From a virus: DNA of 49,592 nt. The translations under genes were made by a program, and so were the position numbers. This document shows positions 14,167 through 40,130 of the stretch, in pieces (the first letter of the stretch is position 1; the number at the start of each line of letters is the position of its first letter). The notes under the pieces were generated by a model. It had not been told where the DNA came from. It was given only the letters and a program-made list of their open reading frames with translations, and did not search any database. The DNA lies in the IMG/VR virus record IMGVR_UViG_3300028883_000062, positions 1 to 49,592 of that record. One strand, given 5' to 3'.

Positions 14167-14182
14167 GGTGTGTTTAGTCTCC

Positions 14183-15937: not shown

Positions 15938-16026
15938 CTTTCCTCCGTTCGCCTTTCGGCGTTTGAGCCACCTATCGAGCCACAAGGCAGGCAGATAGCT
16001 GAGACTATAATTTATCCAATTCTTCA

Positions 16027-17825: not shown

Positions 17826-18320
17826 TTACCAGGCGGTTATTGTTAGTTGCAGCCCAACGACATACATATCCGGGCCGCTCATTGGCAGTATATCACCACC
17901 GCCAAATAGCTGCATCCCGGCCACTTCGTATGCAAGGCCACATCGGATAACTCCGTTAATGCTGTTTTCTCCGGTATTGTCCAGAAATGTATAAATCCCG
18001 CTCCCGAGGCCGAGCGAAATAGGCATGAACGGCAAGGTCTTAAACCCGGTGGTCATAATGCGGATCGCCTGGATCTCGGTACCAGCCCCGAAAGGCCGAT
18101 CCGAATACAAGACATCTGCGATCGTTAAAACGCGGTAATTCGCGCTTGCAGGGGTAATTGTTGGTACATCAACCCCGGCTGCATAACAGATCTCGCCGGC
18201 ATAGCCGCTTTGCAGGAGCACGCCAGAACCGAAGCTGGCTAGCGCATCCATCGCCATACTCGAGGGCACAACCGCAAAAAGTAGTAGTAATGCCAGCATT
18301 ACAACTCGGATACGAATCAT
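17826..18320 (-). CDS. Outer-membrane beta-barrel-like protein
   Basis: This 164-residue protein has a Sec signal peptide (IRIRVVMLALLLLFAVVPSS, cleavage near SMA) and a mature part of about 140 residues with alternating hydrophobic strands and Gly-rich turns. It ends with the strand VGLQLTITAW. The final aromatic residue is the C-terminal signature recognised by the BAM complex in outer-membrane proteins. Length fits an eight-stranded barrel of OmpA/OmpX size. Phage-encoded barrels are unusual; they could block superinfection, modify the envelope or aid lysis. The start overlaps the holin stop (ATGA). It is the last gene of the late operon. Confidence 0.65.
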   Translation of the reverse strand: MIRIRVVMLALLLLFAVVPSSMAMDALASFGSGVLLQSGYAGEICYAAGVDVPTITPASANYRVLTIADVLYSDRPFGAGTEIQAIRIMTTGFKTLPFMPISLGLGSGIYTFLDNTGENSINGVIRCGLAYEVAGMQLFGGGDILPMSGPDMYVVGLQLTITAW

Positions 18321-18658
18321 TCTTTATTCCCCTTCCGAATATCGAGTATCGATTTACGTTTCTCTGTGTTTCGACCAAAGGATATGGTTTTGCCGAGGAT
18401 CGCAGCAACAAAAATCATACCCGCACCGGCAATCACACTTCCCCACCCCGCCTCCCCGAACCACAGATAGCTCGCTCCTGCGCTGAGAACCAGCGTGACA
18501 ATCAACGTCACGTTGCCCTCCATAGCCGCCTCGTCACCGGCGAGGGGAACCACGCGCGTTTTAATGAACTGGACCAAAAAGACGACCAGGGCAGCCGCTT
18601 GTGCTACCAAAATTGGATCGAGAGCAAATTTGTCCAGTAGCGGTGAAAGCACATCCAC
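18317..18658 (-). CDS. Putative holin
   Basis: This 113-residue protein has three candidate membrane spans (LVAQAAALVVFLVQFIKT, VTLIVTLVLSAGASYLW and VIAGAGMIFVAAILGKTI) and a charged C-terminal tail. Size, spans and position next to the endolysin-type gene fit a holin that forms inner-membrane lesions for lysis. The GTG at 18658 follows AAGGAGGTGATC, an unusually perfect complement to the 16S 3' end, which implies strong translation. An alternative is a general membrane protein. Confidence 0.7.
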   Translation of the reverse strand: MDVLSPLLDKFALDPILVAQAAALVVFLVQFIKTRVVPLAGDEAAMEGNVTLIVTLVLSAGASYLWFGEAGWGSVIAGAGMIFVAAILGKTISFGRNTEKRKSILDIRKGNKE

Positions 18659-18689
18659 GCGATCACCTCCTTGTTTTAAGGTTTAGTTG

Positions 18690-19640
18690 CTACCGATAGG
18701 CTTCATCGGCATCGAGAACATTCAATGGATCCACCAATGTATCGACATAAAACCGCTTGACGGTCCCTCGTATCGGGTATGGGCCCACACGTGCCGTATA
18801 GGTCAACAGATAGTAGGCGCCATCCGGATTAACGAGAGTCGTCGGCGGGACATCAAAAGTCACCCGCCCACCGACGGGGCGAGCTTTCCACAGCTTCGGG
18901 ATGATTCCCCAACCGCCGTAGCTCATTGGTGGCCCCCCTATCAGCTTGAGCTGGAATTCGATATTGGCACGCGGTTCAAGCGCACCTCCGGAGACTACTC
19001 CGGAAGTCACATCGAAATACACCCGAACGTAATCGGCAATCGCCTGAGCTGGTCCGTCCAATGTTTCATACAACAACCAGGTCGTCGATGCACTAGTATC
19101 GTCACCAGCAAACCAGAGTAGATATAATTGATTGTCCCGATCTGTTCTGAGTGAAAAGGTTGTGTCGATTGGTAACGTAACCATCACCGTATCGGATATA
19201 GTGTACGTAGTGTCAATCGCCTCGCGGTCGCTGAGGATGATGGCAACCGAGTCGTAGTCCGGAGAGATCAAGGCAATCGGGTAATGTGTGGTCGTTACCG
19301 CTCCGCGCTGGTATAGGTAGTCGTCCCACCCGACACTACTATCAAGCCCGGTGAACCACACTCCGCGCACCTGCCAGTCGTATAGGTCGTCGAGCTCTAG
19401 ATCCAGCATTGCCGGCACGACAGACAAACTCTCCGAGGCCTGCACCCAGGTACCGAGCGAATCCCACAGCGTCACAACTCGAACGCTATCGTAGTCCGGA
19501 GAGGCAAACGGCATACTATGGATTACCGTACCACAACGCGCCAGGGGAGCCAGCAGTACCGCATTGAATAGCACCGTCAGGATCGCTACCAGAAAAAGCA
19601 CCCGCCAGACGTACCTACATGTTTCCGTCGATTGATTCAT
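18690..19640 (-). CDS. Hypothetical signal-anchored protein in lysis/fibre region
   Basis: This 316-residue protein has a hydrophobic N-terminal segment (VWRVLFLVAILTVLFNAVLL) that is more likely a signal anchor or long signal peptide, with a Cys at about 36. The rest is beta-rich with two similar blocks, ASPDYDSVRVVTLWDS and ISPDYDSVAIILSDRE. The C-terminal part looks like an immunoglobulin-like or fibre domain (YYLLTYTARVGPYPIRGTVK). It lies between the NlpC/P60 gene and the holin and overlaps the former by 26 bases. The role is not clear: virion appendage or envelope-acting protein. Confidence 0.55.
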   Translation of the reverse strand: MNQSTETCRYVWRVLFLVAILTVLFNAVLLAPLARCGTVIHSMPFASPDYDSVRVVTLWDSLGTWVQASESLSVVPAMLDLELDDLYDWQVRGVWFTGLDSSVGWDDYLYQRGAVTTTHYPIALISPDYDSVAIILSDREAIDTTYTISDTVMVTLPIDTTFSLRTDRDNQLYLLWFAGDDTSASTTWLLYETLDGPAQAIADYVRVYFDVTSGVVSGGALEPRANIEFQLKLIGGPPMSYGGWGIIPKLWKARPVGGRVTFDVPPTTLVNPDGAYYLLTYTARVGPYPIRGTVKRFYVDTLVDPLNVLDADEAYR

Positions 19641-20166
19641 TGTCTACTCCATCTGCGAAAGGATCCAATACTATCATCAAATCCCCTCGGTAATCGATTG
19701 GCCGAAAGTACACCCCGGCCCCTCGGCGTTTGGCTATTCTTACTGTTGTTGTCTGACTATTCCCACCCACAGCACCGATGCAGATCTCATTATTGACCGC
19801 AAGCATCACATGTGACGCATAATGTGAGTTACCGTAAAATATCAAACACCCAGGCAGGATATTTTTTTTCTCCCCGACTATGGGCCAGGGCTTCAATCTA
19901 AGCGTTTCGGCTGTCCAGTCACCATGTAGCGGTAGCTTTCCCATCTGTCGCAGCACGTACCGCACAAACCCCGAACAGTCGAGCCCCGGCTTTTTCTTGT
20001 CTGCCGGATCGTTGCCGCTCCAAATATACGGTGTGCCATAACACCGGATCCCGAGCTCAACGGCTATGTCGCGCGTCTGTATCATACCGCAAACCAGATC
20101 CAGAGTGATAGACATGCGATGCCAAGCAGGGACAGCCAAAAATGCGTCCGCGAAATACCTAACCAT
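19615..20166 (-). CDS. NlpC/P60-type peptidoglycan hydrolase (endolysin candidate)
   Basis: This 183-residue protein has the NlpC/P60 catalytic signature: GTPYIWSGNDPADKKKPGLD followed by CSGFVRYVL (Cys64) and YASHVMLAVNNE (His119). These enzymes cut peptide bonds in peptidoglycan stems. In phages they serve as endolysin or tail-associated lysin; the holin gene 957 bases downstream favours an endolysin. ATG 20166 is used here, but ATG 20085 (MIQTRDIAVELG) also begins exactly at the domain, so the first 27 residues are uncertain. Confidence 0.85.
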   Translation of the reverse strand: MVRYFADAFLAVPAWHRMSITLDLVCGMIQTRDIAVELGIRCYGTPYIWSGNDPADKKKPGLDCSGFVRYVLRQMGKLPLHGDWTAETLRLKPWPIVGEKKNILPGCLIFYGNSHYASHVMLAVNNEICIGAVGGNSQTTTVRIAKRRGAGVYFRPIDYRGDLMIVLDPFADGVDNESIDGNM

Positions 20167-20170
20167 TTTC

Positions 20171-22756
20171 TCATCGTACTACTCCATTTCCGATGCTGCC
20201 GCCTTTGAATTCACCCCCCTCACCACTGACAACGACCGCCGCCGTGAATTCCTCTATGTCTCCGATCGGATTCGAGGCCCCATTGGTATCATCATTTATC
20301 CAACCGCGAACGTAAATTGTGTAAGTCTCGGCCCCATCGATGCCGCCTACGTCAACGATCCAGCCCGCGCTGTCAGCAACGTAGCCAAAGGACGTGCCTC
20401 CGCTTGTGGTATCTGACATAGCCGAGGGGTAGCCCGAGGTGGACCAGGCCAGAACAATGATCGGATTATCGGCAAGCGTCTGGGTGTCGGTCGATAATGT
20501 AATCCTGAATGAATCCAACTCCGATCCGCCAGTGTAATCGTTATGTAGGCTATCCACGGTCAATGACAGCAAGGGATTAGTGGCCAGGTCAGCCGCAGTG
20601 AATGTAATGCTTGTGATCGACCTGTCAGAAACGTCGCCGGATGTGGCTCCGACTACCCACGCGGAGATATAGAGAGTATATGTCTCAGTGCCGTCAAAGG
20701 TAATGTTCGTTGTGATCGCACTGTCGGGGTAATAGGTAATCACCAAATCAGAGTCAGAGATGCTCGATGGATATGTGGTAGAGGACCACGCCAGTACAAT
20801 CGTTCCGTTGGATTCGAACGTTTGAGCCGTCGTAGTCGTCGTTACGGCAATGGTATCTACCGCACCATCGTTGTACACCGAATCAGCAGAGAACACCGAT
20901 AACTGATTCACTTCCTCGGCATCCCATGAGCCTGTCCCGGCAACGTCGAAATCTAAGGTGTCGACCTTGCTTGCTTCCGTCCATGTGATAGTCGTATCGA
21001 ATGATTGAACTGTACCAGCCGAATCAGAATCAAGCCACACCGTAACAGTGAATGGATTGAAGCTGGTGGAGTCAGCGCCATAGTATGCCTCGAACCAATA
21101 TGTGACCACCTGCTCTTTGAGCCCATTGGAGCCAGTCACACCGGACCATGTATTTCCATAGCTATCTTCTACGTGGACGTTGGCCCCAACGATCGCAGAG
21201 TCGTTATTCCCTCGGGCATAGACCTTGTAGGTTGAGGCCAACGAAATCTCATGCTCGTAACCGGAGCCCGGAGGGATACTGGTTATATCGATCGATGTAT
21301 CGCTAACGTCCGTCCCGAGGGCCATGTCAGTAAAGATATTGTCCACGTTTTGCCGGTTGGCCCGATCAAAGCGGTAGGTGTAATTCTTGTCGGGGTAGCC
21401 TGGCCCCCAATAGAGCGAACAGGCGACGGCATCAACTCCCCCTCCCGTCCCGTTATCAGTTCCAATCTCTATGATATTGTCACCGCCACCGATGTCGTTG
21501 TTTTGATATACGACCCCCTCTTGCGAGGCGCTACGCTGGAATGAGCACCCGGTACCATGTTGAAGCCCGGTATCGCTCATGGTGTAGACTTCAAAGATAT
21601 TATTCTCAACCGTCGTCCAGCCGCCGATCACATAGACAGGCGGTGTGTCTTGAGTCGAAACAGTATCAACCTGTGTAAATTCAATCTTACCACCATGACC
21701 GACCCTGCCACGATACGTTGTGCTACTATCAGAGTCCACATACACTCGGAAATAGTTGTTACGAATGACTACATATTTCGGCGCCGATCGAGTGAAGATG
21801 CCAAACCCCCAACCGCCGTTCGAGGCTTCATATCTATTCGGCCCGTTCCACACCTGGACATTATTATCGTAAATATAGATGCTGTCACCTTCAGACCCGA
21901 AACAGCGTTCGACAAAGATACCCTGGCCGCCTTCGTAGGTGGTGCCAGAGCGAATTATGTTGTCATGTATTCTCATCCCGCCGCGACCACCACGACAGGC
22001 GATAGCAAAGGGATCAACCGAGCTGGCACAGACGTTCCCCGGTGGACCTTCGGCCCCAGGATAGTACCAGTTATGAGCGTCGATTTCAAAGTAACACTCG
22101 TAGATGTGGGTTTTTCCACCCGCCTTAACGCCCGCATGTGGTGACACCAAGACGGAACACCGATACATAGTATAATGATAACCGGAATCCAGCGACGGTA
22201 ATGTTCCCTGCAAAAGCAGGGGCGAGCCAGTGTAGCCGCACCGATCACTATATCCCCATGTGTAGTTGTAGAAATTGCAGTTATCAAAAAGTACGTTTTT
22301 GGTCCCGCCGACAGTATAGACGTTATGCCCCTGGTACCCCCCTGTAATGAAATTGACATTCTCGAAGATCAAGTTATCGCCATCATCGAGATAGCAGTTA
22401 TTAGATCCCGTTTGTGATCCCGGGTTCCCCTGCGTGCCCGTGTCTACCGGGTTAGTGATCGAGATCGTAAGATCCTTTATGCGGCAGTGTTTATTCCCCC
22501 AGGAGATCCATAAACCTCTCCCTCCGGAGGCAGGAGTGAAGATAGTATCATCACCGCCACCATCCCCCGTAAATAGCACGCCAGTTGCATTGATCTTCAA
22601 AAAGGACGCGACCGATACGGTGCGGTTTCCACTCACGACGATAGTATCATAAGCGCTAGTCGTGTATGGCAGACTGAGAGTATCGAATTCGATGTACGCC
22701 CCGGATGCCAATGCGGGGAGCAAGAGCACAAACAGAAGCAAAAGTAGCTGTTTCAT
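20171..22756 (-). CDS. Exported beta-helix tail spike with Ig-like repeats
   Basis: This 861-residue protein starts with a strong signal peptide (KQLLLLLFVLLLPALASGA). Residues about 25-480 show a right-handed parallel beta-helix (repeated short hydrophobic strands and Asn/Gly turns, e.g. GGRGGMRIHDNIIRSG, GDSIYIYDNNVQVWNG) like depolymerase or adsorption spikes. Two similar Ig-like domains follow at about 620-725 and 730-840 (IVLAWSSTTYPSSISD versus IVLAWSTSGYPSAMSD). It has 11 cysteines, all in the beta-helix part. The ATG overlaps the preceding stop. An exported spike is not standard in phages and is part of the main finding. Confidence 0.8.
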   Translation of the reverse strand: MKQLLLLLFVLLLPALASGAYIEFDTLSLPYTTSAYDTIVVSGNRTVSVASFLKINATGVLFTGDGGGDDTIFTPASGGRGLWISWGNKHCRIKDLTISITNPVDTGTQGNPGSQTGSNNCYLDDGDNLIFENVNFITGGYQGHNVYTVGGTKNVLFDNCNFYNYTWGYSDRCGYTGSPLLLQGTLPSLDSGYHYTMYRCSVLVSPHAGVKAGGKTHIYECYFEIDAHNWYYPGAEGPPGNVCASSVDPFAIACRGGRGGMRIHDNIIRSGTTYEGGQGIFVERCFGSEGDSIYIYDNNVQVWNGPNRYEASNGGWGFGIFTRSAPKYVVIRNNYFRVYVDSDSSTTYRGRVGHGGKIEFTQVDTVSTQDTPPVYVIGGWTTVENNIFEVYTMSDTGLQHGTGCSFQRSASQEGVVYQNNDIGGGDNIIEIGTDNGTGGGVDAVACSLYWGPGYPDKNYTYRFDRANRQNVDNIFTDMALGTDVSDTSIDITSIPPGSGYEHEISLASTYKVYARGNNDSAIVGANVHVEDSYGNTWSGVTGSNGLKEQVVTYWFEAYYGADSTSFNPFTVTVWLDSDSAGTVQSFDTTITWTEASKVDTLDFDVAGTGSWDAEEVNQLSVFSADSVYNDGAVDTIAVTTTTTAQTFESNGTIVLAWSSTTYPSSISDSDLVITYYPDSAITTNITFDGTETYTLYISAWVVGATSGDVSDRSITSITFTAADLATNPLLSLTVDSLHNDYTGGSELDSFRITLSTDTQTLADNPIIVLAWSTSGYPSAMSDTTSGGTSFGYVADSAGWIVDVGGIDGAETYTIYVRGWINDDTNGASNPIGDIEEFTAAVVVSGEGGEFKGGSIGNGVVR

Positions 22757-23382
22757 TATTTAACCCCAATCACAAGCGTATCATCGGCTGACGGTGTTCC
22801 GATTACAACCGTATCGCCCTCCGATGGCGCACCAATCACCAACGTTTGCGCCTCGCCCGCAGTCGTCACCAAATATATTGCTGTCGTCATGTCTGCGACT
22901 GTCGCCGCGCCACTCCACGGATCGTCCCACGAAGAAAATGAACCAACAAAATCATACAATCGATTATCCCCGGCGCTATACCAGCGTTTGATTAGACAGC
23001 TATTGCTCGCGTGTACGGCAAGTAGGTATGTAGTGCTCGCAGAGAGCGTGACCCCGGTAAAAGGTAATGGTAGCCATGCCTGGTCCTCTGTCGGGCCATA
23101 ATCACCTTCAGCCGTAGAATCAATCAGGCTCGTATCTACCCCGGCCACCTCATAAAGCGCCATAGCGACGATTGTTGATGTGTTCGTGTCAAAATCGTAT
23201 GGCCAGAAGTAGCCCGAGTCAGCAATTTGATCTGTCCCGCCGATGGTAATTGGAATGGCATAGCGGTAGGACGAAATATCGCCGTTCGTGGCCCCGGTTC
23301 CACTGCTATCGGTTGTGCCATAAGTTTCGGCCAGAGCCGATCCAGCCAAAAGCACCATCGATAGAATTACAAGAATCTTCAT
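22756..23382 (-). CDS. Exported putative receptor-binding protein, paralog A
   Basis: This 208-residue protein has a signal peptide (MKILVILSMVLLAGSALA) and a beta-sandwich-like domain. It aligns with the next gene in order: IGGTDQIADSG vs IGATDQLPESI, DQAWLPLPF vs DRQWNWFDL, TYLLAVHAS vs TFLIAVAGD and SSWDDPWSG vs SSWEDPWSG. The C-terminus has a short triple repeat (LVIGAPSEGDT, VVIGTPSADDT, LVIGVK). Position between two spikes suggests receptor recognition or spike tip, but the function is inferred. AGGAGA precedes the ATG. Confidence 0.65.
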   Translation of the reverse strand: MKILVILSMVLLAGSALAETYGTTDSSGTGATNGDISSYRYAIPITIGGTDQIADSGYFWPYDFDTNTSTIVAMALYEVAGVDTSLIDSTAEGDYGPTEDQAWLPLPFTGVTLSASTTYLLAVHASNSCLIKRWYSAGDNRLYDFVGSFSSWDDPWSGAATVADMTTAIYLVTTAGEAQTLVIGAPSEGDTVVIGTPSADDTLVIGVK

Positions 23383-23383
23383 A

Positions 23384-24040
23384 TCATTCTCCTGTCGTGG
23401 CGATATTACCACCTTGTTCCGGATCGGCCCCTACGTTACCGGGACCGGTTGGGTCCATCCCCCAATAGGACACTACTGATTCTGCTGGCGGTTCGCCTCC
23501 TGCATCAGAAGTATGGAGTATCAGGGAAAATGTTTGTCCATCCGTAACCGATCCACCACTCCACGGATCTTCCCAACTCGAATAGTCAACCTTTCCCCCT
23601 TCCACACATATCGTTTTACCTGCAAGATCATTTCGCCGCATGAGGGCATCACCGTCGCCAGCGACAGCAATTAAAAAGGTGTCATTAGCCGTCAGGGTCG
23701 AATCAAGTTCGAGATCAAACCAATTCCACTGTCGGTCATCGGATGAACCATAAGATTGAGGAGCCGTGGTATCAAAGACAGTTGTGTCTGATCCGGTAAT
23801 GTGGTAGATACACATCTGCACACTGGTGGTCACATAGTAGTAATCAGCGCAGACAGCAATCGATTCTGGAAGCTGATCGGTGGCGCCGATGATAATACGC
23901 AGGCTTACCTGGTTTGCACAGAAATCAATACCGGCACCATTCACGCCGAGTCCGCCATAAATCATGTTCGTATCACCGTAAATGTCTGCCATCGCCGAGG
24001 TAGTTAGCAGCAGGATGAATAAGACCAGTAGGTAGCGCAT
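23384..24040 (-). CDS. Exported putative receptor-binding protein, paralog B
   Basis: This 218-residue protein is the paralog of the preceding-coordinate gene: signal peptide (RYLLVLFILLLTTSAMA), the same order of conserved blocks (IGATDQLPES, DRQWNWFDLELD, NDTFLIAVAGD, SSWEDPWSG) and a similar length. It has four Cys in the mature domain (FCANQ, AVCADYYY, QMCIYH, TICVEGG), whereas paralog A has only one, so disulfides are plausible. The C-terminus differs (PTGPGNVGADPEQGG). ATG 24040 with GGAGAT is preferred over the frame's earlier start at 24115. Confidence 0.65.
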   Translation of the reverse strand: MRYLLVLFILLLTTSAMADIYGDTNMIYGGLGVNGAGIDFCANQVSLRIIIGATDQLPESIAVCADYYYVTTSVQMCIYHITGSDTTVFDTTAPQSYGSSDDRQWNWFDLELDSTLTANDTFLIAVAGDGDALMRRNDLAGKTICVEGGKVDYSSWEDPWSGGSVTDGQTFSLILHTSDAGGEPPAESVVSYWGMDPTGPGNVGADPEQGGNIATTGE

Positions 24041-24044
24041 TGTA

Positions 24045-28142: not shown

Positions 28143-28146
28143 TTTA

Positions 28147-28413
28147 TTACCTCGCTGAGTCAGGCAACGTTCCGAAGTGACGTTCCAGTCGCTTCAGGCT
28201 GCTCTGGATTTGCTTAAACTCCACGTCATAACGAACCAACTGCTTCTCAATCACAGCGATACGTACTTCGTGTTTCTCTATTATTGCGCTTTTCTCTGCG
28301 ACCTCACTTTTGATTATCGACCCGAGAATAGTGAGCAACAGCATTATGACCACACCCGATACGGCAAGCGCTCGGTCCTTCGTGATGAGATTACTGCCAG
28401 TTTCCTTTGCCAT
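28147..28413 (-). CDS. Small membrane coiled-coil protein (holin/spanin candidate)
   Basis: This 88-residue protein has an N-terminal membrane segment (LAVSGVVIMLLLTILGSII) followed by a coiled coil (EKSAIIEKHEVRIAVIEKQL, YDVEFKQIQSSLKRLERHFG). This shape fits an i-spanin or a small holin-like lysis protein, but no family is recognised. ATG 28413 is chosen; a GTG at 28428 overlaps the upstream stop and is possible. It lies between the internal virion protein and the first spike. Confidence 0.55.
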   Translation of the reverse strand: MAKETGSNLITKDRALAVSGVVIMLLLTILGSIIKSEVAEKSAIIEKHEVRIAVIEKQLVRYDVEFKQIQSSLKRLERHFGTLPDSAR

Positions 28414-28427
28414 AGTCGAGCACCCCA

Positions 28428-31400
28428 CTAATTGCCAATCTGATTCAATAATTGCTCTCTATCTTCTTCAGTTAAAGACCAGAAGAATAGCTGTCTCTGA
28501 GTTGCGCTTGTGCTTTCCCATTTATCGAGAAGTCTATTCCGATATTTCCACAGTCGGTCGCGCATCTGCTTCGGAGTCAGATTAAGATCCTTGTGCATCA
28601 ACATAAGCGCATCGGCAATACGTCCCTCGATAATAGCTGCGTCCACGTCCTCGTAGGTGGCCTGGCGGCCCGCCGCTCTTTGCTTTTTCCATCTATCGAG
28701 CGCTCGTCCGATGTCGCCGCCCGGGTACCCCTTCGAGGTGGGGAAACCAAAATTAGAAACAAGAGCGTTCCAATTACTGCGCTTCGCATCGAGTATGTTG
28801 TCAAGCACCTGAGTAACAGAGATCGGCGCAAAGGTACCTTCCACCCACGTCGTTACTTTGTCGATCGTGCTCTGCGGATCTTTATCTTCATCGATCTTCT
28901 GTCCGTATTCATCTTGCCCCTGAAGCACGCGAAATGTTGTGCTTATCATCGGTGCCACCTTACCATAGAATTTCTGGAAATCGCCCTTTGCGAGTGAATG
29001 AGCCATTCCCGGAACCTCAAATATGCTCTTGAACGGCGGGGCCCAGGCGGTCGTACCGTCTGGATTGTTGTACGGTAGCCTGACCAGGAATTTCATGTCC
29101 TCCGGATTCTGCCACATGAACTTGCCCTCGCCGTCCATGAATTTCGTCATTTGATAATTCCAGATATTCGAGGCGGTATATAGTCCTATCGCACCAGCCA
29201 GATACCAGCGATATTGTGTAGCGATCGGGTGAAGCGGATCCATGTGCATCTTTCGCCTGAGACTGTTCGGGGCAAGCGACTTGGTTGTCTCGTAGGCTAT
29301 GCGAATGTGAGATTCCTGCCACGTGGGAGAGATGAGGCCATACTGCCACGCCTTTCTCACTCCCTGACCGTACCAGAGTTTGATCGCTGTCTTGTTGCTC
29401 TCGAGCAGATTCATCTTATAGTCTGCGCCGGAGAACAAACCGTCTGCCATCTTCACGGCATCCCGATATGCGAGCTCCATGTTAAGGCCCTGTTCTCGGT
29501 ACTTTGGAGCGATTCGATCAAAGACCTTGTGTGCCATGTAGGTTTTCATCCCTGGGTGCAATACATCAAAGATGATATGTGACATCTTCCAAACCGGCCA
29601 CGTGATAATGTTGGCGGGAGTGTTATTGAATCGCAGCATGTCAACGGGTTTGAAGCCAATATCCGAATAAGCGTCAACCTTCAGTCCGTTTCGCATGAGT
29701 CCATGTGTGACCTCAGTAGGATGCTCGAGTATCTTCAGGCCCTTCGGTACCATAGTCAACGGATTCACGCGATTCGCGATTGCCTGGAACCCGAGCTGTA
29801 TCGGATGGAAGAAGCCAGCCAGCTTCGCGCCTTTAGAGAGATACATGAATCGACCGAAATTGGTAATCTGCGGTGATTTGTGATAGTTCTCCCACCACGG
29901 CATGATCTCTCTGAACACTCCAACCGGACCCTTCATTACTATCGTTTGTCCGTTATGGCCCTTAAACGTGATCGGTCGCTGTAAGAAGATGTTTTCCGTG
30001 TACTCGTAAAGATCCTGCAAACCAGCCTCGGTGATCTTATTCCACGGCTCGATAACGTTAGCATCCTCGAGCTTTACGCTCCCGGTATATCGATCCTTCC
30101 GGGGTATCTCGATGCCGCCGCCAATCTTCGTGCTGTGCAGCTCCGCGTAAAGGCGACGTGAGGCATTGGCAAGTTCCAGGTTGCGGTAGCCATTACCAAC
30201 GAGGGTGCCGAGATTGAGTGTCGCGGGAATCTTCCCTGCGGCCATCGCCTGTTCCATCGTTTCATATTTGCGTCGCATGAGCGCGGGCTGATTCTTTGCG
30301 AATTGACCGAATTGCGGATTGATAGGCTTCCCTGACACCGGATCCTGCCAGATATGGCGTAAATACACATGACCAGGTGGGCGCGTTTGCTTGTCGATTA
30401 AGCCTAATTGTAACCCGTAGTCCTCGAATTGTTTTGAGAATTCTCGGAACATGGTCACCACGCCCTTTTCTTTTGGTGTGAGGTTTCTCCAATACCTCGA
30501 GTTCGGGCCCTGCTCCATAGCGTGCGCCAGAGTGAGTTGCCGCTCCTGGGGTATCTTGAAATTCTCGAATTCTTTTGAAAGCAAGTATTCAATAGCGCCG
30601 GCATCGAGTACACGTTTGCGGTGACTCCACATCGACTTGACCGCGGCCTCAACATTGGACTGGATCTCTATTCGTTCCGGCGACTTCGCCAGTACCGCGT
30701 CAACGTACTCTTTTACATACTTGGCGTTGTTGTAGACTGTCCGGGCGAGCTGATGATAGGCTTCAGGCGTTCCGAGGGCGCCGAGGGAGACTGAGCCGTC
30801 GCCCTTCTCCACCATGTCAAAGAGCGAGCCCTGATTTTCAACAAGATCCCTGACACCTTCCTTCAGCTTTTCGATCTTGGCATCGATACGCTTAATTTCT
30901 TCGACCGACTCAACCTTTTTCCGGAGCTCTCGCAGTTCATCGATCTGTTTGACAATCCAGCCGGTGTCCTGCCTGGATCTAGTACCCTCGTTGATCGGGG
31001 CTTTCGTAAATTTGAGCGGAGCGTTCTTGTCGAAGGCTATGTCTGTTACCTGGCGCTCGATTTTCGCCTCAAACTCACCGGCTTTGAGCTTCCACATGTC
31101 CTGCTCTCGATAGAGAACATCGAATAGCTGTTTCTCATGGTAATTCGTGATCTGCGGGAAGTCTTTTCTCAGGTTTCCTACCATCTTGGCCTTGATCTCG
31201 AAGTACGGCACATTGTCGCGGAGCGCTTCAGGCTGTTTCAGTATGTCTACAAATATACCTTTGGGGTCCAGATAGGTATAGGACTCGAGCTTCGGTACTC
31301 GATCTTTGCCGAACGAGTCTGTCAACTGCTGCTTTGTTTTCTTCTGGTCTTTGGCGATCCTGAAGGCTTCGATGTCCTCCCCGATCGTTTCTCGGGTCGC

Positions 31401-34400
31401 GCTACGGTTCGCCTCAACTTTTGCGTGGTAGACCGCTTCTTCGAGTGTGCCCTCGAAGTATTTTACCGGGACTTCATCGATCCCTATGCGTTTCAGGGCT
31501 TCATATCGGCTATGTCCAGAGAGCAGGTATGTCTGTCCGTCCTTCGGATCTTTCCAGACAATAAGGTCGTCCAGCTTCCCGGGGTCGAAATCATTGACTA
31601 TTCGCTCTACTGACTCCTCAGAGAATTCCTGCTTGCGGTTCTGGAACCGTTCGGGATCCAGCTTTATGTCGGATCGCTTCAGGATGATTCGTTCTTTAGC
31701 GAATGTTTTACTGGCGACAGGTTTGGTCCCACCGTCAGCCTTTCCGGATTCAGGTTCGGGTTGAACATCGGCCGGTTTGGGTTCTTCAGCCGGTTTCTCG
31801 GCGGGCTTGGGTGCTTCCTCTTTAGGAGCTGGCTTTTCTTCAGCCGCAGGCTTTTCTTCGGCAGGTTTCGATCGCTCAACGGGTTTAGCCTCCTTTGTCA
31901 CTGTCTCGGGCGGTTTGGTGACTACTTTCAGTTCTCCCTTATTCGCTCCCTCGAGCATCTTCACTTCGTAGAACGTCTTTCCGGAAATCTCCTGCGAGTT
32001 ACCAGTGTACTCTGCCTTGTCGCCCTTCACATAGACCTCGTTTGGCCCTGTCTGGAATTCCTCTGCAATCGGCGTAGGCTCCATCACATCTTCAACCTTC
32101 GGGCGTTCTTTCGGCTTCGGCTTCGGCGCTGCCGGTGTAGGTTCGACCACTTCAACATTCTCGACACTCCGCTTGGCATCCTCGAGGGCTTCCAGATCTC
32201 GAAGTAGGCGAGCCTGCAAGTTGTCTACTGTTGCCTGTAACGCCACCTGTTCGGGCTTAGAATACGCGACCATCACTTCTTCCAGCTCAGCGATATTATT
32301 TTCGATTGTTGGAATCGTTTCCTCGAGCTTGCGGATCTGCTCATTTCGACGATCGAGTTCGCGCTGTGACACCTTTTCGGGCGGCCCTGTCGGTTTTTTG
32401 GGCTCAGGAGCGCGCTCGGGAGCCATAGCGGGCGTTTCGGGCGGCGCCACGTCTGTCGGGATAGCTTCGGCCTTCGGCGGCTTCTTGGCCTTCCCAGGGG
32501 CCTCTGGCGGGGTCTGCGGTGTCGGCGGCTTCGGAGCCGGGGCGACTGGTTCCGGAGGCTCGGGCCATTGGTCGGGCGGTAGATCTTCGCGCGCTTCTTT
32601 CAGGCGACCGTTTATCTCTGCTATTTCGAGCTGATTGGCTCCTTCCGACTGCTTCAAGGTCTGTGCCCGGGCCTCTAAATGCTGTACGCGGCGTTTTTTG
32701 TCGCCGTATTGCAGTTCATCGAGCTTGACTTGCTCTTTCGCATCGAGCTCTCGTTCCAGTTTGCGAAGCTGTTCGGCGTAGACGTGCGGGACCAACTCAC
32801 CATAGAGCAGCCCTTCCTTTGCGCGCCTCGAGGCACCTGCAAGGTCTGTCGCTTCCATGTCCGGACGCATCCGGAGGATCTCAGCATCGATGGCTTTCGG
32901 ATCCATACGCGAAATCATGTCGCGCAGATCCTTCATAGCCACATCAGGCGGCGGGACAATGCCCTGCTCCTGTCGGGCCAGTTCATCGAGTAATAGGCGC
33001 TTGCCGGCTGGCGACTTCCGAATTTCCTCGAGGCTCTTTTGGGCCTCGGCCTCGTTCTTGAGTTCCCGTTCGATAGCCTTTGCCGACTGTTCAGCCGGTC
33101 CGAGCTTCTTCGGTGGCTGTTCCGGATAAGACCGATTGGCCTCCTGCATGAGCTGTTCTTGCCGCTTCAGATCTTCCTTCAGCAATCGAGCACCTTCAGG
33201 TGATTGGCGTAGCTGTGTTTGCCTGGCCTCGGCATCCAACATCGCCCTGGCTGATTGCTTCGCGGGTCCGGCTGGCGGTTTAGGCGGGTTTAAGGCCTCC
33301 TGTTGGCGTAAGTCCTCAGCGAGCAAGCGGGCACCTTCCGGTGACTGTCGTAATCTTTGTTCCCGGGCCTCGTACTCGGCGATAGCTGCGGCTGATTCCT
33401 CGGCAGACTTTTCTACTGCGCGCCGTGACTGTTCCTCTAGTTCGATCTCCCGGGCCTTGTATTCAGCTTCCCGGGCGGCCTGGTCAACCTTGTCCTTGCG
33501 TGCCTGTTCTTTGGCTGCATCCATAGCACGCTGTTCTTCGGCGAACCGTTGAAGCTCCTGCTCTGCTACTGAGTAACTTTTCTTTTTGCCCCGACTCAGC
33601 TTTGCCGCTCCACCCATAGCCATTCCCGCAAGCATGGCTACACCAAATGGGTTCTTCAACAACTCTTTTTGAGCATTCTCAATTTGTTTTGTGTTCGCAT
33701 ATTCCAGACGAAAGCCTTTGGTAATAGAAAATTCTGGATCAACACCTGCGGCTTCCAGTAATAGCGTTGTTTCTTCGAGAGGAAACTTCAACATGCCAAC
33801 AGCAAATTCATACGGGTTCTGGATAAAGCTCGCCATCAGCTCGGGAGCGATGCGGATAGCACCAGAAATGAAGTTCCGCGCAAAAATAGTTCCATCAGAA
33901 AGCGGGTATTCCCGGTCCTCATACTGGCCGGTTTCCTCGTTCCAGACCGATACCGTTTCGGTGGCGCCAGGCTCAATAACACCTAGCCCGAGTTCCTTAA
34001 ACCCCTCGTCAACTAGTTCGGTTAGCTGTTCCTTCGGCAGAATCGGCTTCAGAGGGTGTGTCTCGCCCACACCTTCAGCAACGTATTTATCCAGTTTTTT
34101 CAGGTTGTACATGGCGGCCTGATAAAACTGATCGATAAAGGGATCAGCTAGATCTACCGCACCTTTCCTGATGGCCTCCCCGTACAGGTCGCGCAACATA
34201 GAAAATATGCCGTTACTCTCGGAGCTCTCGGCTTGAGTCAATAACTCCGGAGGCAGAATACCGACTTCTACTGCCTGCTCTATCTGCTTCTGCTGTTGCG
34301 GATTTAGCGCTTGCGGCCCGCGCGTCTGCACCGTTTTGACCATAGCCCGGAATTCCGGTGTATTCGCATACGTGTGCTCTGGCTCCACCGGAGGAAGGGG

Positions 34401-34499
34401 CGGCCCTACTTGCTTCGCCGGATCCTTGATGTCACGTGCGAGCTGGCGCTCTTTGGCCAGGTCTGATTCCGCGTAGCTCTTATGAATCCGCTCGTACAT
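28428..34499 (-). CDS. Giant internal virion (polyvalent) protein with ParB domain
   Basis: This 2023-residue protein is probably ejected with the DNA. Order of regions: helical N-terminus with a hydrophobic stretch at about 278-297; coiled-coil and Glu/Pro-rich region (300-930) holding three repeats QSPEGARLL, QSPEGARLL and KSPAGKRLL at about 383, 433 and 492; a ParB-like nuclease domain at about 935-1060 (ILKRSDIKLDPERFQNRKQE, LSGHSRYEALKRIGIDEVP); and a long C-terminal part like the large polyvalent-protein associated domains. No signal peptide. Polyvalent proteins combine injection and DNA-processing or defence-counter functions. The position (after nozzle, before fibres) matches T7 internal virion genes. 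The ATG directly follows the previous stop. Confidence 0.75.
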   Translation of the reverse strand: MYERIHKSYAESDLAKERQLARDIKDPAKQVGPPLPPVEPEHTYANTPEFRAMVKTVQTRGPQALNPQQQKQIEQAVEVGILPPELLTQAESSESNGIFSMLRDLYGEAIRKGAVDLADPFIDQFYQAAMYNLKKLDKYVAEGVGETHPLKPILPKEQLTELVDEGFKELGLGVIEPGATETVSVWNEETGQYEDREYPLSDGTIFARNFISGAIRIAPELMASFIQNPYEFAVGMLKFPLEETTLLLEAAGVDPEFSITKGFRLEYANTKQIENAQKELLKNPFGVAMLAGMAMGGAAKLSRGKKKSYSVAEQELQRFAEEQRAMDAAKEQARKDKVDQAAREAEYKAREIELEEQSRRAVEKSAEESAAAIAEYEAREQRLRQSPEGARLLAEDLRQQEALNPPKPPAGPAKQSARAMLDAEARQTQLRQSPEGARLLKEDLKRQEQLMQEANRSYPEQPPKKLGPAEQSAKAIERELKNEAEAQKSLEEIRKSPAGKRLLLDELARQEQGIVPPPDVAMKDLRDMISRMDPKAIDAEILRMRPDMEATDLAGASRRAKEGLLYGELVPHVYAEQLRKLERELDAKEQVKLDELQYGDKKRRVQHLEARAQTLKQSEGANQLEIAEINGRLKEAREDLPPDQWPEPPEPVAPAPKPPTPQTPPEAPGKAKKPPKAEAIPTDVAPPETPAMAPERAPEPKKPTGPPEKVSQRELDRRNEQIRKLEETIPTIENNIAELEEVMVAYSKPEQVALQATVDNLQARLLRDLEALEDAKRSVENVEVVEPTPAAPKPKPKERPKVEDVMEPTPIAEEFQTGPNEVYVKGDKAEYTGNSQEISGKTFYEVKMLEGANKGELKVVTKPPETVTKEAKPVERSKPAEEKPAAEEKPAPKEEAPKPAEKPAEEPKPADVQPEPESGKADGGTKPVASKTFAKERIILKRSDIKLDPERFQNRKQEFSEESVERIVNDFDPGKLDDLIVWKDPKDGQTYLLSGHSRYEALKRIGIDEVPVKYFEGTLEEAVYHAKVEANRSATRETIGEDIEAFRIAKDQKKTKQQLTDSFGKDRVPKLESYTYLDPKGIFVDILKQPEALRDNVPYFEIKAKMVGNLRKDFPQITNYHEKQLFDVLYREQDMWKLKAGEFEAKIERQVTDIAFDKNAPLKFTKAPINEGTRSRQDTGWIVKQIDELRELRKKVESVEEIKRIDAKIEKLKEGVRDLVENQGSLFDMVEKGDGSVSLGALGTPEAYHQLARTVYNNAKYVKEYVDAVLAKSPERIEIQSNVEAAVKSMWSHRKRVLDAGAIEYLLSKEFENFKIPQERQLTLAHAMEQGPNSRYWRNLTPKEKGVVTMFREFSKQFEDYGLQLGLIDKQTRPPGHVYLRHIWQDPVSGKPINPQFGQFAKNQPALMRRKYETMEQAMAAGKIPATLNLGTLVGNGYRNLELANASRRLYAELHSTKIGGGIEIPRKDRYTGSVKLEDANVIEPWNKITEAGLQDLYEYTENIFLQRPITFKGHNGQTIVMKGPVGVFREIMPWWENYHKSPQITNFGRFMYLSKGAKLAGFFHPIQLGFQAIANRVNPLTMVPKGLKILEHPTEVTHGLMRNGLKVDAYSDIGFKPVDMLRFNNTPANIITWPVWKMSHIIFDVLHPGMKTYMAHKVFDRIAPKYREQGLNMELAYRDAVKMADGLFSGADYKMNLLESNKTAIKLWYGQGVRKAWQYGLISPTWQESHIRIAYETTKSLAPNSLRRKMHMDPLHPIATQYRWYLAGAIGLYTASNIWNYQMTKFMDGEGKFMWQNPEDMKFLVRLPYNNPDGTTAWAPPFKSIFEVPGMAHSLAKGDFQKFYGKVAPMISTTFRVLQGQDEYGQKIDEDKDPQSTIDKVTTWVEGTFAPISVTQVLDNILDAKRSNWNALVSNFGFPTSKGYPGGDIGRALDRWKKQRAAGRQATYEDVDAAIIEGRIADALMLMHKDLNLTPKQMRDRLWKYRNRLLDKWESTSATQRQLFFWSLTEEDREQLLNQIGN

Positions 34500-34500
34500 A

Positions 34501-35649: not shown

Positions 35650-35659
35650 GACTTAGCTC

Positions 35660-36118
35660 CTATAAGGCCAGTGGTGCATAGCCAACCGCAGTCCCGATAA
35701 GCTCCTCAAGGAAGCTCGGCTGTGCTTCTTCGGCTCTCAGCACGCCCCACATCTGCAAGGCTCTCTGAAGTTGTTGTTCTTTGATCTGGGCGCGTGTCAT
35801 AGCCCCCTGTTGTCGCATACCTTCAAACTGAAGGCGGCCCTGTGTTGCAACCGACGCAAGCTGGCCGGCGACTGGTGCGAGCACGTCCCGATACATCGCT
35901 CCGGGGGCCTCTCCCGAGCTGTATATACCACGGCTTGCCAGGTCAGCATTGAACCCTTCCATCGCAAACGGTACTTGCGATAAGATCTGCTCAAAGCGGG
36001 CATTGATCGCATCCTCGAAAGGATCAAGTTCAGGGACAAGACCACTCAGGTTCGAGTTGTCGCGCATCAGTAGCCGTTGCATGTCCGTACTGGTTAGCGA
36101 CGTGTTGTAGCCACTCAT
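35660..36118 (-). CDS. Small putative internal virion protein
   Basis: This 152-residue protein is helical in the middle (RGIYSSGEAPGAMYRDVLAP, MTRAQIKEQQLQRALQMWGV) and has no signal peptide. The C-terminus is mildly hydrophobic (EELIGTAVGYAPLAL). It lies in the internal virion protein block; the function is not known. Confidence 0.55.
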   Translation of the reverse strand: MSGYNTSLTSTDMQRLLMRDNSNLSGLVPELDPFEDAINARFEQILSQVPFAMEGFNADLASRGIYSSGEAPGAMYRDVLAPVAGQLASVATQGRLQFEGMRQQGAMTRAQIKEQQLQRALQMWGVLRAEEAQPSFLEELIGTAVGYAPLAL

Positions 36119-36511
36119 CTATTCACCCTCCACACGGTAATTGATCGTGGCCGTATCGCTCCGCACCGAGGACCGGACGACAAAGCGTGTGCCACTTCGA
36201 GGAATAACCGTGTACGTGTTGGTGTTATTTGTGTCGAGACTCCATGCGAGCCCTCGATAAGAAGTGCTGTCCAGAAAGGACACGTCCTGCTTCTGGTCAA
36301 CGGTCGACGTATTTAGCGTAACAGAGCCCCAACCATACGACAGCTTGACGGTTCCTGCGACTTGGTGCCAGCCCTTTGCTGTCTCTGACTGGTTGATCGG
36401 TCTACCGTCAGGGCCGTAGATCGTTTTGATTTTCCCTTCAACTTGTTCGTCCTGGGCGAACGTGAACGCCGCAACCGAACAGAGTAACAGCACCAAGAGA
36501 AGATGCTTCAT
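36119..36511 (-). CDS. Small exported tail-region protein
   Basis: This 130-residue protein has a clear signal peptide (MKHLLLVLLLCSVAAFTFA, cleaved before QDEQ) and a beta-rich mature part (VKLSYGWGSVTLNTSTVDQK, TRFVVRSSVRSDTATINYRV). Its ATG overlaps the nozzle gene's stop (TAATG) and follows GGGAGG. It may be a tail accessory protein; no family is recognised. Confidence 0.6.
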   Translation of the reverse strand: MKHLLLVLLLCSVAAFTFAQDEQVEGKIKTIYGPDGRPINQSETAKGWHQVAGTVKLSYGWGSVTLNTSTVDQKQDVSFLDSTSYRGLAWSLDTNNTNTYTVIPRSGTRFVVRSSVRSDTATINYRVEGE

Positions 36512-39240
36512 TACTGCCTCCCCTGATCCCACGGCACGAAGCCAATGTTATAGCCCTTAATAGTATAGTCGCCTCGCCCATTATCAGTGATTTTAACTGA
36601 AAGGTTGTCGACTATGCGATCGATCGGAACGCGATCAACATTGTGATCGGTGAAGTCTGGCACGAATGTATGTGTAAGAACCGCCACCGGAGTCGATTGC
36701 GGCCCGTAGTTTTCATAGAAGGTCAATGTCACCGTATCGGCCTCTCCGGATCCGTACAAGTCGAAATAGAGCGCCTTGACGCGCCCCTGGCTTTCGAAGA
36801 AGTATTTAGACTGGTATGTCGCTATGATAGTATCTTTGCCATCGAGGGTATCAGTCGCACCCCCGATCCACTGGTACATCGTATCGTTCGTGCCGGCCAG
36901 AACCCACTGCTCCGATCGCACGTCTGCCCTGGCGGTATCGATGTCGAACAAAAGCGCATCACGAAACCCAAAATCGTAGCAGCTCCAATGAGGTCTGATT
37001 TCCTCGGAATAGACGTAGGTTTTCCAACTACTGTCAGTAATGGGTAATGACAGCCAGTACTGGCCATTAACGACCGCTCCAACCGCCCGTTGTCGCCTGT
37101 CCTCGAGGGAGTCAATAGTCAGGTCGATCGGCAAGGACAGCCGTTGCTGGAAGTTACCGAATTTGTATGCTCCCATGTGATCGAGAAAGTATAGTCCGGT
37201 TCGTCCTTCGGCCAGACTAGCGGGAGCCGCGAGCCCCACAGAATTACTCACAGGCTGCAAGTTGTACTGATACAGATTGGCGCCTGTCAGAGAGTAAATG
37301 CTATTCTGCCTGAAGATCAGTAGTGTATTGCTGACCGGCCACAAAGCATTGATCCAGTCGCCGGTTTGCGTCGGGAGCAATAAAAACTTGTCCTCGTCCC
37401 ACGTCCCAGGCCGATTGAAGTCCGAATAATAGAGGCGGTTCGGGTAGGTCTGGTATCCTGCGGCATAAATCCGCGAATTGAAATAAGCGATTGTTCTCGG
37501 CTGAAACTCAATAGCAGAATCATCATAGCAGAACATCACCGGGTCGTCGATCAGGTTCGTATCGTCGCACCATACCTCCCCGGGAATGGAATCGTAGGGC
37601 ATCGAGTCACTATACGATGTCTGCCCCGGTTCCAGTGTATCGAGAATGACCCAGTTCTTGAGGTACGCCTGGTCAACGCTGCTCTCCACCTTGATTGTGT
37701 CGTAGGTCGGGTAATTGGGAGAGCCATAGGTGAAGTCACCCCCGGGCTCGAGGTGAAAGATCTCAAAGTAATTCCCGGCGTAGTTAGTCGAACAAACCAC
37801 TTCCTCTTGCAGCTCAACGGCGGCATTAAGATCCTGCACCCAATACTTAATCAGGCTATCAATCTCAGCCTCGGCGCTACTCGATGGGTAATAACCGACG
37901 GTCGTGGAGTTGACGGTATATTGGTGCTCCTGAAAACCATAGCTCGGCTTCTTTGTGATCGTTACCCTGACCACCTTACCCTGTGAGTTACTAGTGAATT
38001 CGCCGAAGCATCCCCGTAATAGGATCTTCCGGGCGATCGATTGCGTGTCGATCGGGACCGGAATACTATCGAGGTCATACCCGACGCGATCAGCTCCGAA
38101 TAAACGCATCTGATTTCGATAGAGCGCGCGACAGGCGGCGGGCCCGGCATAACTGCGTCTGCCGGCTGAATCCTCGAATACCACCGAGTAGCCGATCTTG
38201 ACGCATTGTGTATCAGTGATTCCCTGAATGTTGCTGAACACGCCATAGGGCGAGCTCGCAGCGTTCCATGAGGCATAAATACACCCGGGAGGGTACGGTG
38301 TTGGGTCTGCTGCCGCAGAATCACAGTCACCATAGGCGCAGTTGAAGTAATCGCCCCAATCATACGTTCGCGCGGAATCGATAACGGCGTAGCCGGTGTC
38401 AACGAATGTGCCAAGATTCACGCCGATCATGTTGATTGCGGTTATCGGGTAGTATGAGCCGCCGTCAACACTGCGATAGATCAGGGCCTTACTGTTTGTC
38501 TCGGAATGAGTGTACGCCGGGTTCGGTCCGATCCGATCAACGTAGATTGCGCTCCCGTTGACATAGAGGGGCCAGGTCGGGAGCGACAGGTTGGTGGTGT
38601 CGCCTCCGGTCGTGATCCATGCGTATTTGTACGTGTACGTGCCAAAGAGCACGCCACCTGAGTCGATAGGGATAGATCTAGGCTGATTGGGTCCGAGCGG
38701 TCGCACCGGTGCGGTTGTGGAGCCGTTATAGGTCATAAGCTCGGATCCGTATAGCCCAACAACAAGGTCGTTATTTACGGTAATAGATTGCAGATTAGCG
38801 CCGACTACGGGGTTCACGCTCGGGAGGTACATTAGCAACTCAGGAGTCAGTGTAGTAGTACAGGCGGGAATGGCGGGGTCGGCAAGCCGCATGGTCGCGA
38901 GGCCACTGTCTGCGATCCCGTTCGATGTGATTCCGGATAACTCGCGCAACACTAGTAGGCGCTTCCCATCTACCTGCTGATAGGCTATTAGTCCATGAGC
39001 TCGCACACCCGCCACTGTGTCGGCATAATAGTAGCGCAACCCCGGTCGGCGCTTCAGGCCGCCTTTAGTAACTCGATAGTTATCGAGTACCAGAGCTTGA
39101 TTGTCCTGCATCAATGCGTTCGTCAGTGAATTGACCAGGCCACCACTGAAATCAAAAACGCTTTTCTCTTGGATCCCCTGTCCCATCGCTGGCAGAGCAA
39201 GGATGAACAGAAGGAGTAATATAGCCGCTATCTTTTTCAT
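36511..39240 (-). CDS. Tail nozzle / tubular protein B-like, with signal peptide
   Basis: This 909-residue protein resembles the T7 gp12-type or phage-stabilisation nozzle: FSGGLVNSLTNALMQDNQAL, then VTKGGLKRRPGLRYY, a beta-propeller-like middle and a domain with RIYAAGYQTYPNRLYYSDFN and FRQNSIYSLTG. Its mature part is preceded by a clear signal peptide (MKKIAAILLLLFILALPAMG, cleaved before QGIQ), which is unexpected for this family. It has 11 cysteines, including a CAYGDCDS pair. The ATG overlaps the previous stop (ATGA). Role: distal tail tube forming the exit for DNA. Confidence 0.8.
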   Translation of the reverse strand: MKKIAAILLLLFILALPAMGQGIQEKSVFDFSGGLVNSLTNALMQDNQALVLDNYRVTKGGLKRRPGLRYYYADTVAGVRAHGLIAYQQVDGKRLLVLRELSGITSNGIADSGLATMRLADPAIPACTTTLTPELLMYLPSVNPVVGANLQSITVNNDLVVGLYGSELMTYNGSTTAPVRPLGPNQPRSIPIDSGGVLFGTYTYKYAWITTGGDTTNLSLPTWPLYVNGSAIYVDRIGPNPAYTHSETNSKALIYRSVDGGSYYPITAINMIGVNLGTFVDTGYAVIDSARTYDWGDYFNCAYGDCDSAAADPTPYPPGCIYASWNAASSPYGVFSNIQGITDTQCVKIGYSVVFEDSAGRRSYAGPAACRALYRNQMRLFGADRVGYDLDSIPVPIDTQSIARKILLRGCFGEFTSNSQGKVVRVTITKKPSYGFQEHQYTVNSTTVGYYPSSSAEAEIDSLIKYWVQDLNAAVELQEEVVCSTNYAGNYFEIFHLEPGGDFTYGSPNYPTYDTIKVESSVDQAYLKNWVILDTLEPGQTSYSDSMPYDSIPGEVWCDDTNLIDDPVMFCYDDSAIEFQPRTIAYFNSRIYAAGYQTYPNRLYYSDFNRPGTWDEDKFLLLPTQTGDWINALWPVSNTLLIFRQNSIYSLTGANLYQYNLQPVSNSVGLAAPASLAEGRTGLYFLDHMGAYKFGNFQQRLSLPIDLTIDSLEDRRQRAVGAVVNGQYWLSLPITDSSWKTYVYSEEIRPHWSCYDFGFRDALLFDIDTARADVRSEQWVLAGTNDTMYQWIGGATDTLDGKDTIIATYQSKYFFESQGRVKALYFDLYGSGEADTVTLTFYENYGPQSTPVAVLTHTFVPDFTDHNVDRVPIDRIVDNLSVKITDNGRGDYTIKGYNIGFVPWDQGRQ

Positions 39241-40130
39241 TGGGATCCCTTCAGAACACCCATGTCCATACGTACTTGCTGCCAGACAAGCTGCGCTCGT
39301 TGGTAATCCTTCAGATAGCGCAAATAGTATTCCGTCGCCGTTTCAACGACAAATACCTCTAACCCATCTGCGAGCTCGCACTCCGTTGAGTCCGTTGTCA
39401 TTTCTGAGGGCCATCCCGCATAGATGAATTTGACAGCCCAGGTGCCGGCAACCACACTCGGGGAGGGAGAGCGCAGGTAGAACACCCGTATCGTGTCATT
39501 GTCGTTCATAAATTGACCACTCTGCACGTAAAGATCTGCGGAGTCTACTTCTGATTGTGCGACGAAGTAACTCGTTACGTTCGTGTCGATCAAAAAGCCG
39601 GGGTTTTGAGCCATCGCCTTCCATCGAGCGCCAGAGCGTCCCATAGCAAACATCATGCGCCGAAAGTCCCGTGGCAGTCGGTAGGATAGAGAGTCGTTCG
39701 AGGTGACTATATCTACATACGTCGGATCAATAGCAACGTCAGCCAGGTAAGCCCGTACTGCATTTGAATCGCGAACAAGCTGCCAGGGCAATACGCCAGA
39801 GTCAACCCCATTGGCATAGTCGCCCCATTGTTGTTTGGCAAAGAGCTTCACATTGATAAGGGACACGGCATCATTCGGGAGCCCGTATTGTCCGGACACA
39901 GCGAAAACGGTATCCCACTCTTTAACTATATAATTATTCAGGCGGGCAATCTTGCGCTGTGACAGATTGAGCCATGTATGAATAATGCTGTCGGGAACTA
40001 CGGAAGTCGCCGTATCGGGTTCCCCGATGGCGTGCCGAAAGTCATTGGTGAGCTGCGACAATGTGGCGCTCTGTGTTGGCACTGCACACGCGAGCACCAC
40101 CACGAAAACAGCCAGTAGGAAGTGTTTCAT
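39237..40130 (-). CDS. Adaptor-like tail protein with signal peptide
   Basis: This 297-residue protein starts with a signal peptide (MKHFLLAVFVVVLACAVPTQ). The mature part has helices typical of head-tail adaptors (DSIIHTWLNLSQRKIARLNN at the start and LEVFVVETATEYYLRYLKDY at the end) around a beta domain. It may bridge the portal-bound adaptor and the nozzle. It is coupled to the signal-less adaptor-like gene 40130-40813 (TAATG) and to the nozzle gene (ATGA). The presence of a signal peptide sets it apart from normal adaptors. Confidence 0.6.
   Translation of the reverse strand: MKHFLLAVFVVVLACAVPTQSATLSQLTNDFRHAIGEPDTATSVVPDSIIHTWLNLSQRKIARLNNYIVKEWDTVFAVSGQYGLPNDAVSLINVKLFAKQQWGDYANGVDSGVLPWQLVRDSNAVRAYLADVAIDPTYVDIVTSNDSLSYRLPRDFRRMMFAMGRSGARWKAMAQNPGFLIDTNVTSYFVAQSEVDSADLYVQSGQFMNDNDTIRVFYLRSPSPSVVAGTWAVKFIYAGWPSEMTTDSTECELADGLEVFVVETATEYYLRYLKDYQRAQLVWQQVRMDMGVLKGSQ

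Follow-up and report, generated by a model that had tools for sequence, protein, structure and literature searches.

Structural tail proteins of the podovirus described here begin with Sec signal peptides (SPs). The window, i.e. the whole 49,592-base virus record that was analysed, encodes an SU10-type tail adaptor, a tail nozzle and a beta-helical tailspike, each with an SP ahead of its recognisable domain. We consider it probable that these SPs work as Sec signals and that the proteins bearing them are true tail components of the virion, with heads built in the cytoplasm, tails exported, and the two joined after the holin has acted.

Results

An orphan podovirus of the SU10 type

The genome (49.6 kb) is that of an orphan podovirus without close relatives. 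Its nozzle, adaptor, capsid and portal found no relative in INPHARED by megablast and tblastn, and TerL gave only ~25% matches there, over part of its length. Nozzle, TerL and capsid had no match in IMG/VR scans, and a scan of host genomes with the endolysin returned only 2 loci. A sequence search of the PDB with the adaptor and nozzle gave nothing significant, and an AlphaFold model of the adaptor from one sequence had a pLDDT of 32.

Profile searches nevertheless place the window among SU10-type podoviruses (Table 1). It shares the SU10_MCP capsid family with SU10 (Kuravirus), its adaptor matches SU10_adaptor above the cut-off, and, as in SU10, a nozzle gene comes after the adaptor, as judged from weak but consistent profile matches and synteny. 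The SU10 tail is formed by portal, adaptor and nozzle (PMC9509320). The window departs from the type in the SPs on its adaptor, nozzle and spike. A first adaptor candidate lies directly before the SP-bearing adaptor, at the border between SP-less and SP-bearing genes; the window may hold two adaptor-like proteins, one on either side of this boundary. With its ParB-like region, the internal virion protein recalls a giant protein of Pseudoalteromonas phage Y3 that is annotated as DdrB/ParB-like.

Table 1. Late genes of the window, with SP positions (approximate), SP sequences and first residue after the predicted cut
Feature	Position	Strand	SP position	SP; first mature residue	Basis
Terminase large subunit	46531-48309	-		no SP	phrog_38 3.2e-6
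Portal protein	44501-46537	-		no SP	position and size only; no family match
Major capsid protein	42157-43353	-		no SP	PF17236 SU10_MCP 8.8e-15
First adaptor candidate	40130-40813	-		no SP	adaptor HMM, second-best window match, E=0.006 (weak)
SU10-type tail adaptor	39237-40130	-	40065-40130	MKHFLLAVFVVVLACAVPTQSA; T	PF24175 E=4.5e-11
Tail nozzle/stabilisation protein	36511-39240	-	39181-39240	MKKIAAILLLLFILALPAMG; Q	phrog_5107 E=5.9e-4, residues 33-81; phrog_376 tail
Small fibre-like protein directly after nozzle	36119-36511	-	36455-36511	MKHLLLVLLLCSVAAFTFA; Q	SP; position
Internal virion protein, 2023 aa, ParB-like region	28428-34499	-		no SP	phrog_620 8.7e-5
Tailspike, right-handed beta-helix	24045-28142	-	28083-28142	MKRFVAVFIVCALAASILMA; G	PF13229 Beta_helix 5.9e-12; phrog_2234 tail spike 8.2e-13 from residue 34
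Exported protein, putative receptor binder by position	23384-24040	-	23987-24040	MRYLLVLFILLLTTSAMA; D	SP; no family match
Exported protein, putative receptor binder by position	22756-23382	-	23329-23382	MKILVILSMVLLAGSALA; E	SP; no family match
Second large spike/fibre-like protein	20171-22756	-	22697-22756	MKQLLLLLFVLLLPALASGA; Y	SP; no family match
NlpC/P60 endolysin	19615-20166	-		no SP	PF00877 3.3e-11
N-terminal hydrophobic stretch, SP or signal anchor	18690-19640	-			between endolysin and holin-like gene
Probable outer-membrane beta-barrel	17826-18320	-	18252-18320	MIRIRVVMLALLLLFAVVPSSMA; M	no family match

Eight late genes carry predicted Sec signal peptides

SPs were called with a home-made rule (not SignalP) that asks for a charged n-region, a hydrophobic 9-mer and a -3/-1 site; the cut points in Table 1 were read by eye. 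On the minus strand of the window the rule returned the eight Sec SPs of the original prediction, each in its place, and no others. None was called on the other late genes from TerS to the internal virion proteins, 40130-40813 among them, in agreement with the predicted absence of SPs from packaging, head, first adaptor and internal virion genes. When the rule was run on the interior of the same late proteins, nothing passed among 8,270 N-termini or 186 Met starts, and in 80 other phage loci it passed 0/510 upstream and 3/416 downstream genes.

All eight SP starts have a Shine-Dalgarno sequence (SD; duplex -5.1 to -11.2 kcal/mol), whereas the ATGs found near the cut in four of the genes are without one (+1.2 to -2.8 kcal/mol; random median -2.5). 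By this measure the starts probably do not lie downstream of the hydrophobic segments, a situation that would have spoken against the prediction. The rule controls and this SD comparison led us to reject SPs arising by chance, misplaced starts and dual starts as explanations in the window. Most of the eight genes begin on or directly next to the stop codon of the preceding gene, as expected of a packed operon.

By the same rule, the eight N-termini display the features of Sec substrates cut by signal peptidase I: a charged n-region, a hydrophobic core and small residues at -3 and -1. No n-region contains the RR of a Tat twin-arginine motif. A lipobox-like motif (VLAC) occurs only in the adaptor, where the signal peptidase I site TQSA↓T better fits the domain start; the seven other SPs have plausible signal peptidase I sites and no lipobox. 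The strict Bacteroidota Q rule was rejected as the cleavage pattern, only 2 of the 8 mature proteins being predicted to begin with Q.

Counting the seven genes from the adaptor to 20171-22756 all as tail, against 11 head/internal genes, gives a Fisher p of 3e-5; we do not lean on this split, since adaptor, nozzle and 24045 spike are the only genes with evidence of tail identity other than the SP. The SP proteins contain 1.08 Cys per 100 aa versus 0.49, a difference driven by one Cys-free protein.

The signal peptides precede adaptor, nozzle and spike domains

In the adaptor, the PF24175 domain spans residues 23-117 and is matched from profile position 2, right behind the SP. Another adaptor HMM, which we made from 90 homologues, matched the same gene (E=2.3e-8) over both its N-terminal and C-terminal parts. 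The nozzle gene is the best window match of two nozzle HMMs (E=1.7e-5 and 1.1e-4), it follows the adaptor as phrog_5107 does just behind SU10_adaptor in other genomes, and its SP precedes the conserved N-terminal block. As the adaptor and nozzle HMMs found no other nozzle and no other strong adaptor match elsewhere in the window, the virion must be built from the SP-bearing copies. The small gene after the nozzle, with a weak match to K1-lyase_C below the cut-off (E=0.0012), occupies the position of the SP fibre genes of four other loci (L001, L255, L070 and L091). In the tailspike, only ~12 residues separate the SP from the beta-helix, leaving no room for the usual N-terminal particle-binding domain; attachment may be via the long C-terminal part.

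The other assignments are less uniform. Several of the "receptor binders" of the original prediction are positional guesses. The gene at 17826-18320, listed there among the tail and fibre genes, more likely encodes an outer-membrane protein, judging from its barrel-like C-terminal strand ending in an aromatic residue (...LQLTITAW); it lies at the end of the lysis region and is perhaps a Lom-like or superinfection protein. The predicted signal anchor of 18690-19640 does contain a long hydrophobic stretch, which is ambiguous between SP and anchor. A gene at 28147-28428, which the original prediction did not mention, has one transmembrane (TM) segment.

Homologous adaptors and nozzles lack signal peptides

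SU10_adaptor is carried by 35 of 299 Pseudomonadota genomes. No SP was found at the start of any of the 30 Pseudomonadota adaptor genes read, in most of which the domain begins at the start codon, nor at the nozzle loci read in Pseudomonadota genomes. The same holds for 154 IMG/VR nozzles (74 loci of one family, 80 of another), none of which has an SP; in the second family (80 loci), no SP fibres adjoin the nozzle. Scanning the late regions of SU10, crAss001, coliphage Bas95, two Vibrio phages, Pseudoalteromonas Y3, part of phi38:1 and MW202426 gave no SP on a tail gene, the 2 calls obtained both being on holin or lysis genes. SU10 and crAss001 thus differ from the window, whose adaptor, nozzle and spike have SPs. 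Comparison with homologous phages, which the original prediction had proposed, sets SP-less adaptors and nozzles beside some relatives with SP fibres, and leaves SPs on nozzle and adaptor to the window alone, one genome.

A natural experiment at the short fibre next to the nozzle

An alignment of the nozzle of locus L070 and three relatives retrieved 80 IMG/VR loci, and a second alignment retrieved more. The short fibre encoded after the nozzle has a conserved docking end, M[SA]N.YY.HGS.P..G....SA.MRAEL, which in most loci is the start of the protein. In seven distinct loci (L070, L091, L097, L270, L098 (= L100), L099 and L101) the fibre bears an SP and reads SP+(S)N[DE][FY]Y.HGSFP, and the predicted cleavage exactly restores the N-terminus of the SP-less relatives. 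For example, the L098 fibre reads MLSALKKSILGMVLLVGSTMPAWA followed, after the cut, by SNDFYTHGSFP, and the SP-less L129 fibre reads M followed by SNDYYTHGSFP. Apart from that of L070, the SP fibres have no start codon in the stretch from hydrophobic core to docking end, hence the SP is not an annotation error. The L070 fibre (reverse strand) has an ATG at residue 19, where SP-less relatives start (...PSMANEYYTHG), possibly left over from the acquisition of the SP or serving as a dual start. The ATG of the SP overlaps the nozzle stop codon in L091, L070 and L270, and two of the SP fibres (L070 and L091) contain a Tail Collar domain.

The SP loci fall into two clades of the nozzle tree, with supports of 98/98 and 100/100, both lying within a background of SP-less phages. 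Within these clades SP sequences diverge and their features are kept, indicating that the SP feature is retained. The fibre SP may have arisen once or twice: the tree gives two changes, a single change is found in 3% of bootstrap trees, and the AU test of one clade gave p=0.34. The fibres of the SP clades, looked at for a sign of oxidative folding, follow no clear Cys rule.

The virus-like region of L070 encodes an adaptor and a nozzle without SP, then about ten SP genes, then an endolysin. Counted as consecutive genes after the nozzle with SP or lipoprotein-like N-termini, there are about ten in L070 and six in L091. On the L070 reverse strand (5768-16215 of G079:C374), several of the SP genes are fibre- or adhesin-like (collar, TIG domains), and the endolysin has no SP.

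Further loci with signal peptides

Two podoviruses whose nozzles share only ~25%, MW202477 and MW202637, have an SP on the post-nozzle gene and on further fibre-like genes. Leaving aside a membrane-type gene upstream of the adaptor, the structural candidates with SPs in the relatives come after the nozzle. The membrane-type gene, just upstream of the adaptor in L098 (1607-2278), L099 (8365-9036) and L101 (4509-5180), combines an SP with a further TM segment and probably a cytosolic tail; in the L070 gene at that place the membrane part seems absent. In MW202637 a small SP gene also lies on the head side, between the capsid gene and the adaptor-like genes (L255:12301-12741).

Discussion

A proposed separation of heads and tails between compartments

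That tail parts are exported by Sec is, we infer, well supported, because the SPs sit exactly before adaptor, nozzle and fibre domains which in homologues open at the start codon or close to it. The sequence evidence covers the SPs, real start codons, adaptor, nozzle and fibre homology, and the exact restoration of the fibre N-terminus. The predicted export of tails to the periplasm accords with the SPs before adaptor, nozzle and fibre domains and with the restored fibre N-terminus, less so with 17826-18320, which is probably not a tail gene.

In the scheme that we favour, the cytoplasm would be where heads (portal, capsid, internal proteins and first adaptor) are put together and filled with DNA. 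The second adaptor, nozzle and fibres or spikes would start out as preproteins; the Sec translocon of the host would export them, signal peptidase would remove the SP, and folding would follow in the periplasm, either as single proteins or as a pre-assembled tail. The holin would then open the inner membrane, and heads and exported tail parts would meet and join, before or during release by the endolysin and outer-membrane disruption. This joining after holin triggering, drawn from general knowledge of holin lysis, is the most speculative step; the original prediction had suggested joining at or after lysis, or alternatively a membrane-anchored site of tail assembly. In the relatives the boundary would lie further out, with adaptor and nozzle cytoplasmic and only the fibres exported. 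The compartment boundary appears able to shift along the tail in evolution, since intermediate forms, in which only the fibres would be exported, occur in nature. To the full form of this scheme, with whole tails (second adaptor, nozzle and fibres) in the periplasm, heads in the cytoplasm and the two joined only when the inner membrane opens, we give even chances.

Several points weigh against export. A multimeric adaptor and nozzle would have to cross the membrane unfolded and then find heads after lysis, a brief step; the SP calls come from a home-made rule; SPs on adaptor and nozzle are confined to one genome; and some of the SP genes may not encode virion parts.

Other readings of the signal peptides

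The hydrophobic segments, or a lipid attached at the VLAC of the adaptor, might instead hold the tail at the inner membrane, where heads would dock before lysis. The lipobox-like VLAC itself fits such tethering, as does the SP/TM gene just upstream of the adaptor in the L098-L101 clade, possibly a docking factor for heads at the membrane. However, L092 has a comparable SP gene together with an SP-less fibre, seven of the eight window SPs have plausible signal peptidase I sites and no lipobox, and the exactly restored fibre N-terminus favours cleavage and release; we regard tethering as unlikely.

The exported copies could also work outside the virion, in surface display, receptor blocking or as secreted depolymerases. 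Lom-type exported phage proteins are known (PMC12309495), and this role suits the barrel-like 17826-18320 and perhaps the genes at 22756-24040; the short distance between SP and beta-helix in the 24045 spike, without the usual particle-binding domain, also agrees with it. It suits the adaptor, nozzle and collar fibre poorly, as these are structural proteins, seem to be encoded once each and keep synteny with essential virion genes, and overall we find it distinctly improbable.

A cytoplasmic pool left by internal starts or inefficient export might build the virions, as the ATGs at or near the cut in four window genes and the residue-19 ATG of the L070 fibre could suggest; we hold this very improbable, the window ATGs being without the SD that the primary starts have, and the L070 ATG being absent from the other SP fibres. 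Retention of the hydrophobic segments in the virion, e.g. as membrane-piercing peptides at infection, would suit the general knowledge that tail proteins contact membranes during ejection, but deserves even less credence, given charged n-regions and AxA-type sites in nearly all the proteins, fibre segments that vary freely next to a conserved docking segment, and the placing of such segments on the docking ends of adaptor, nozzle and fibre.

Relation to known systems

To our knowledge, the tail proteins of T7 and P22 have no SP. The coat proteins of filamentous phages (Inoviridae, M13) do have Sec SPs, which are cleaved before assembly, but these unrelated virions are extruded through the membrane without lysis, whereas the window encodes a tailed phage whose head packaging we place in the cytoplasm. 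Lambda Lom and spanins are SP-bearing phage proteins exported to the envelope; they resemble 17826-18320 in their SP and, unlike the tail genes, are not virion tail parts. In Porphyromonas gingivalis phages, host secretion signals, including the Bacteroidetes Q rule, have been reported on phage genes (PMC10367356). There they are on genes of unknown function, spanins and major capsid proteins, the capsid N-termini are ascribed by its authors to a prohead protease, and the passages considered here propose no tail export (PMC10367356). Our search of the open-licence literature gave no description of SPs on tailed-phage adaptors, nozzles or collar fibres, in line with the original prediction, which knew of none; neither "signal" nor "cleav" occurs in the text of the crAss001 atlas.

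The standard teaching is that tailed phages assemble wholly in the cytoplasm. If tails are exported as we propose, half of virion assembly would take place beyond the inner membrane, assembly would be linked to the timing of lysis, and oxidative folding of receptor-binding proteins would be allowed. SPs could then not be used to call a fibre-like gene bacterial (compare PMC6199706, where phage origin is read from the lack of SPs on phage DGR proteins). The natural pairs of fibres with and without SP make the idea directly testable.
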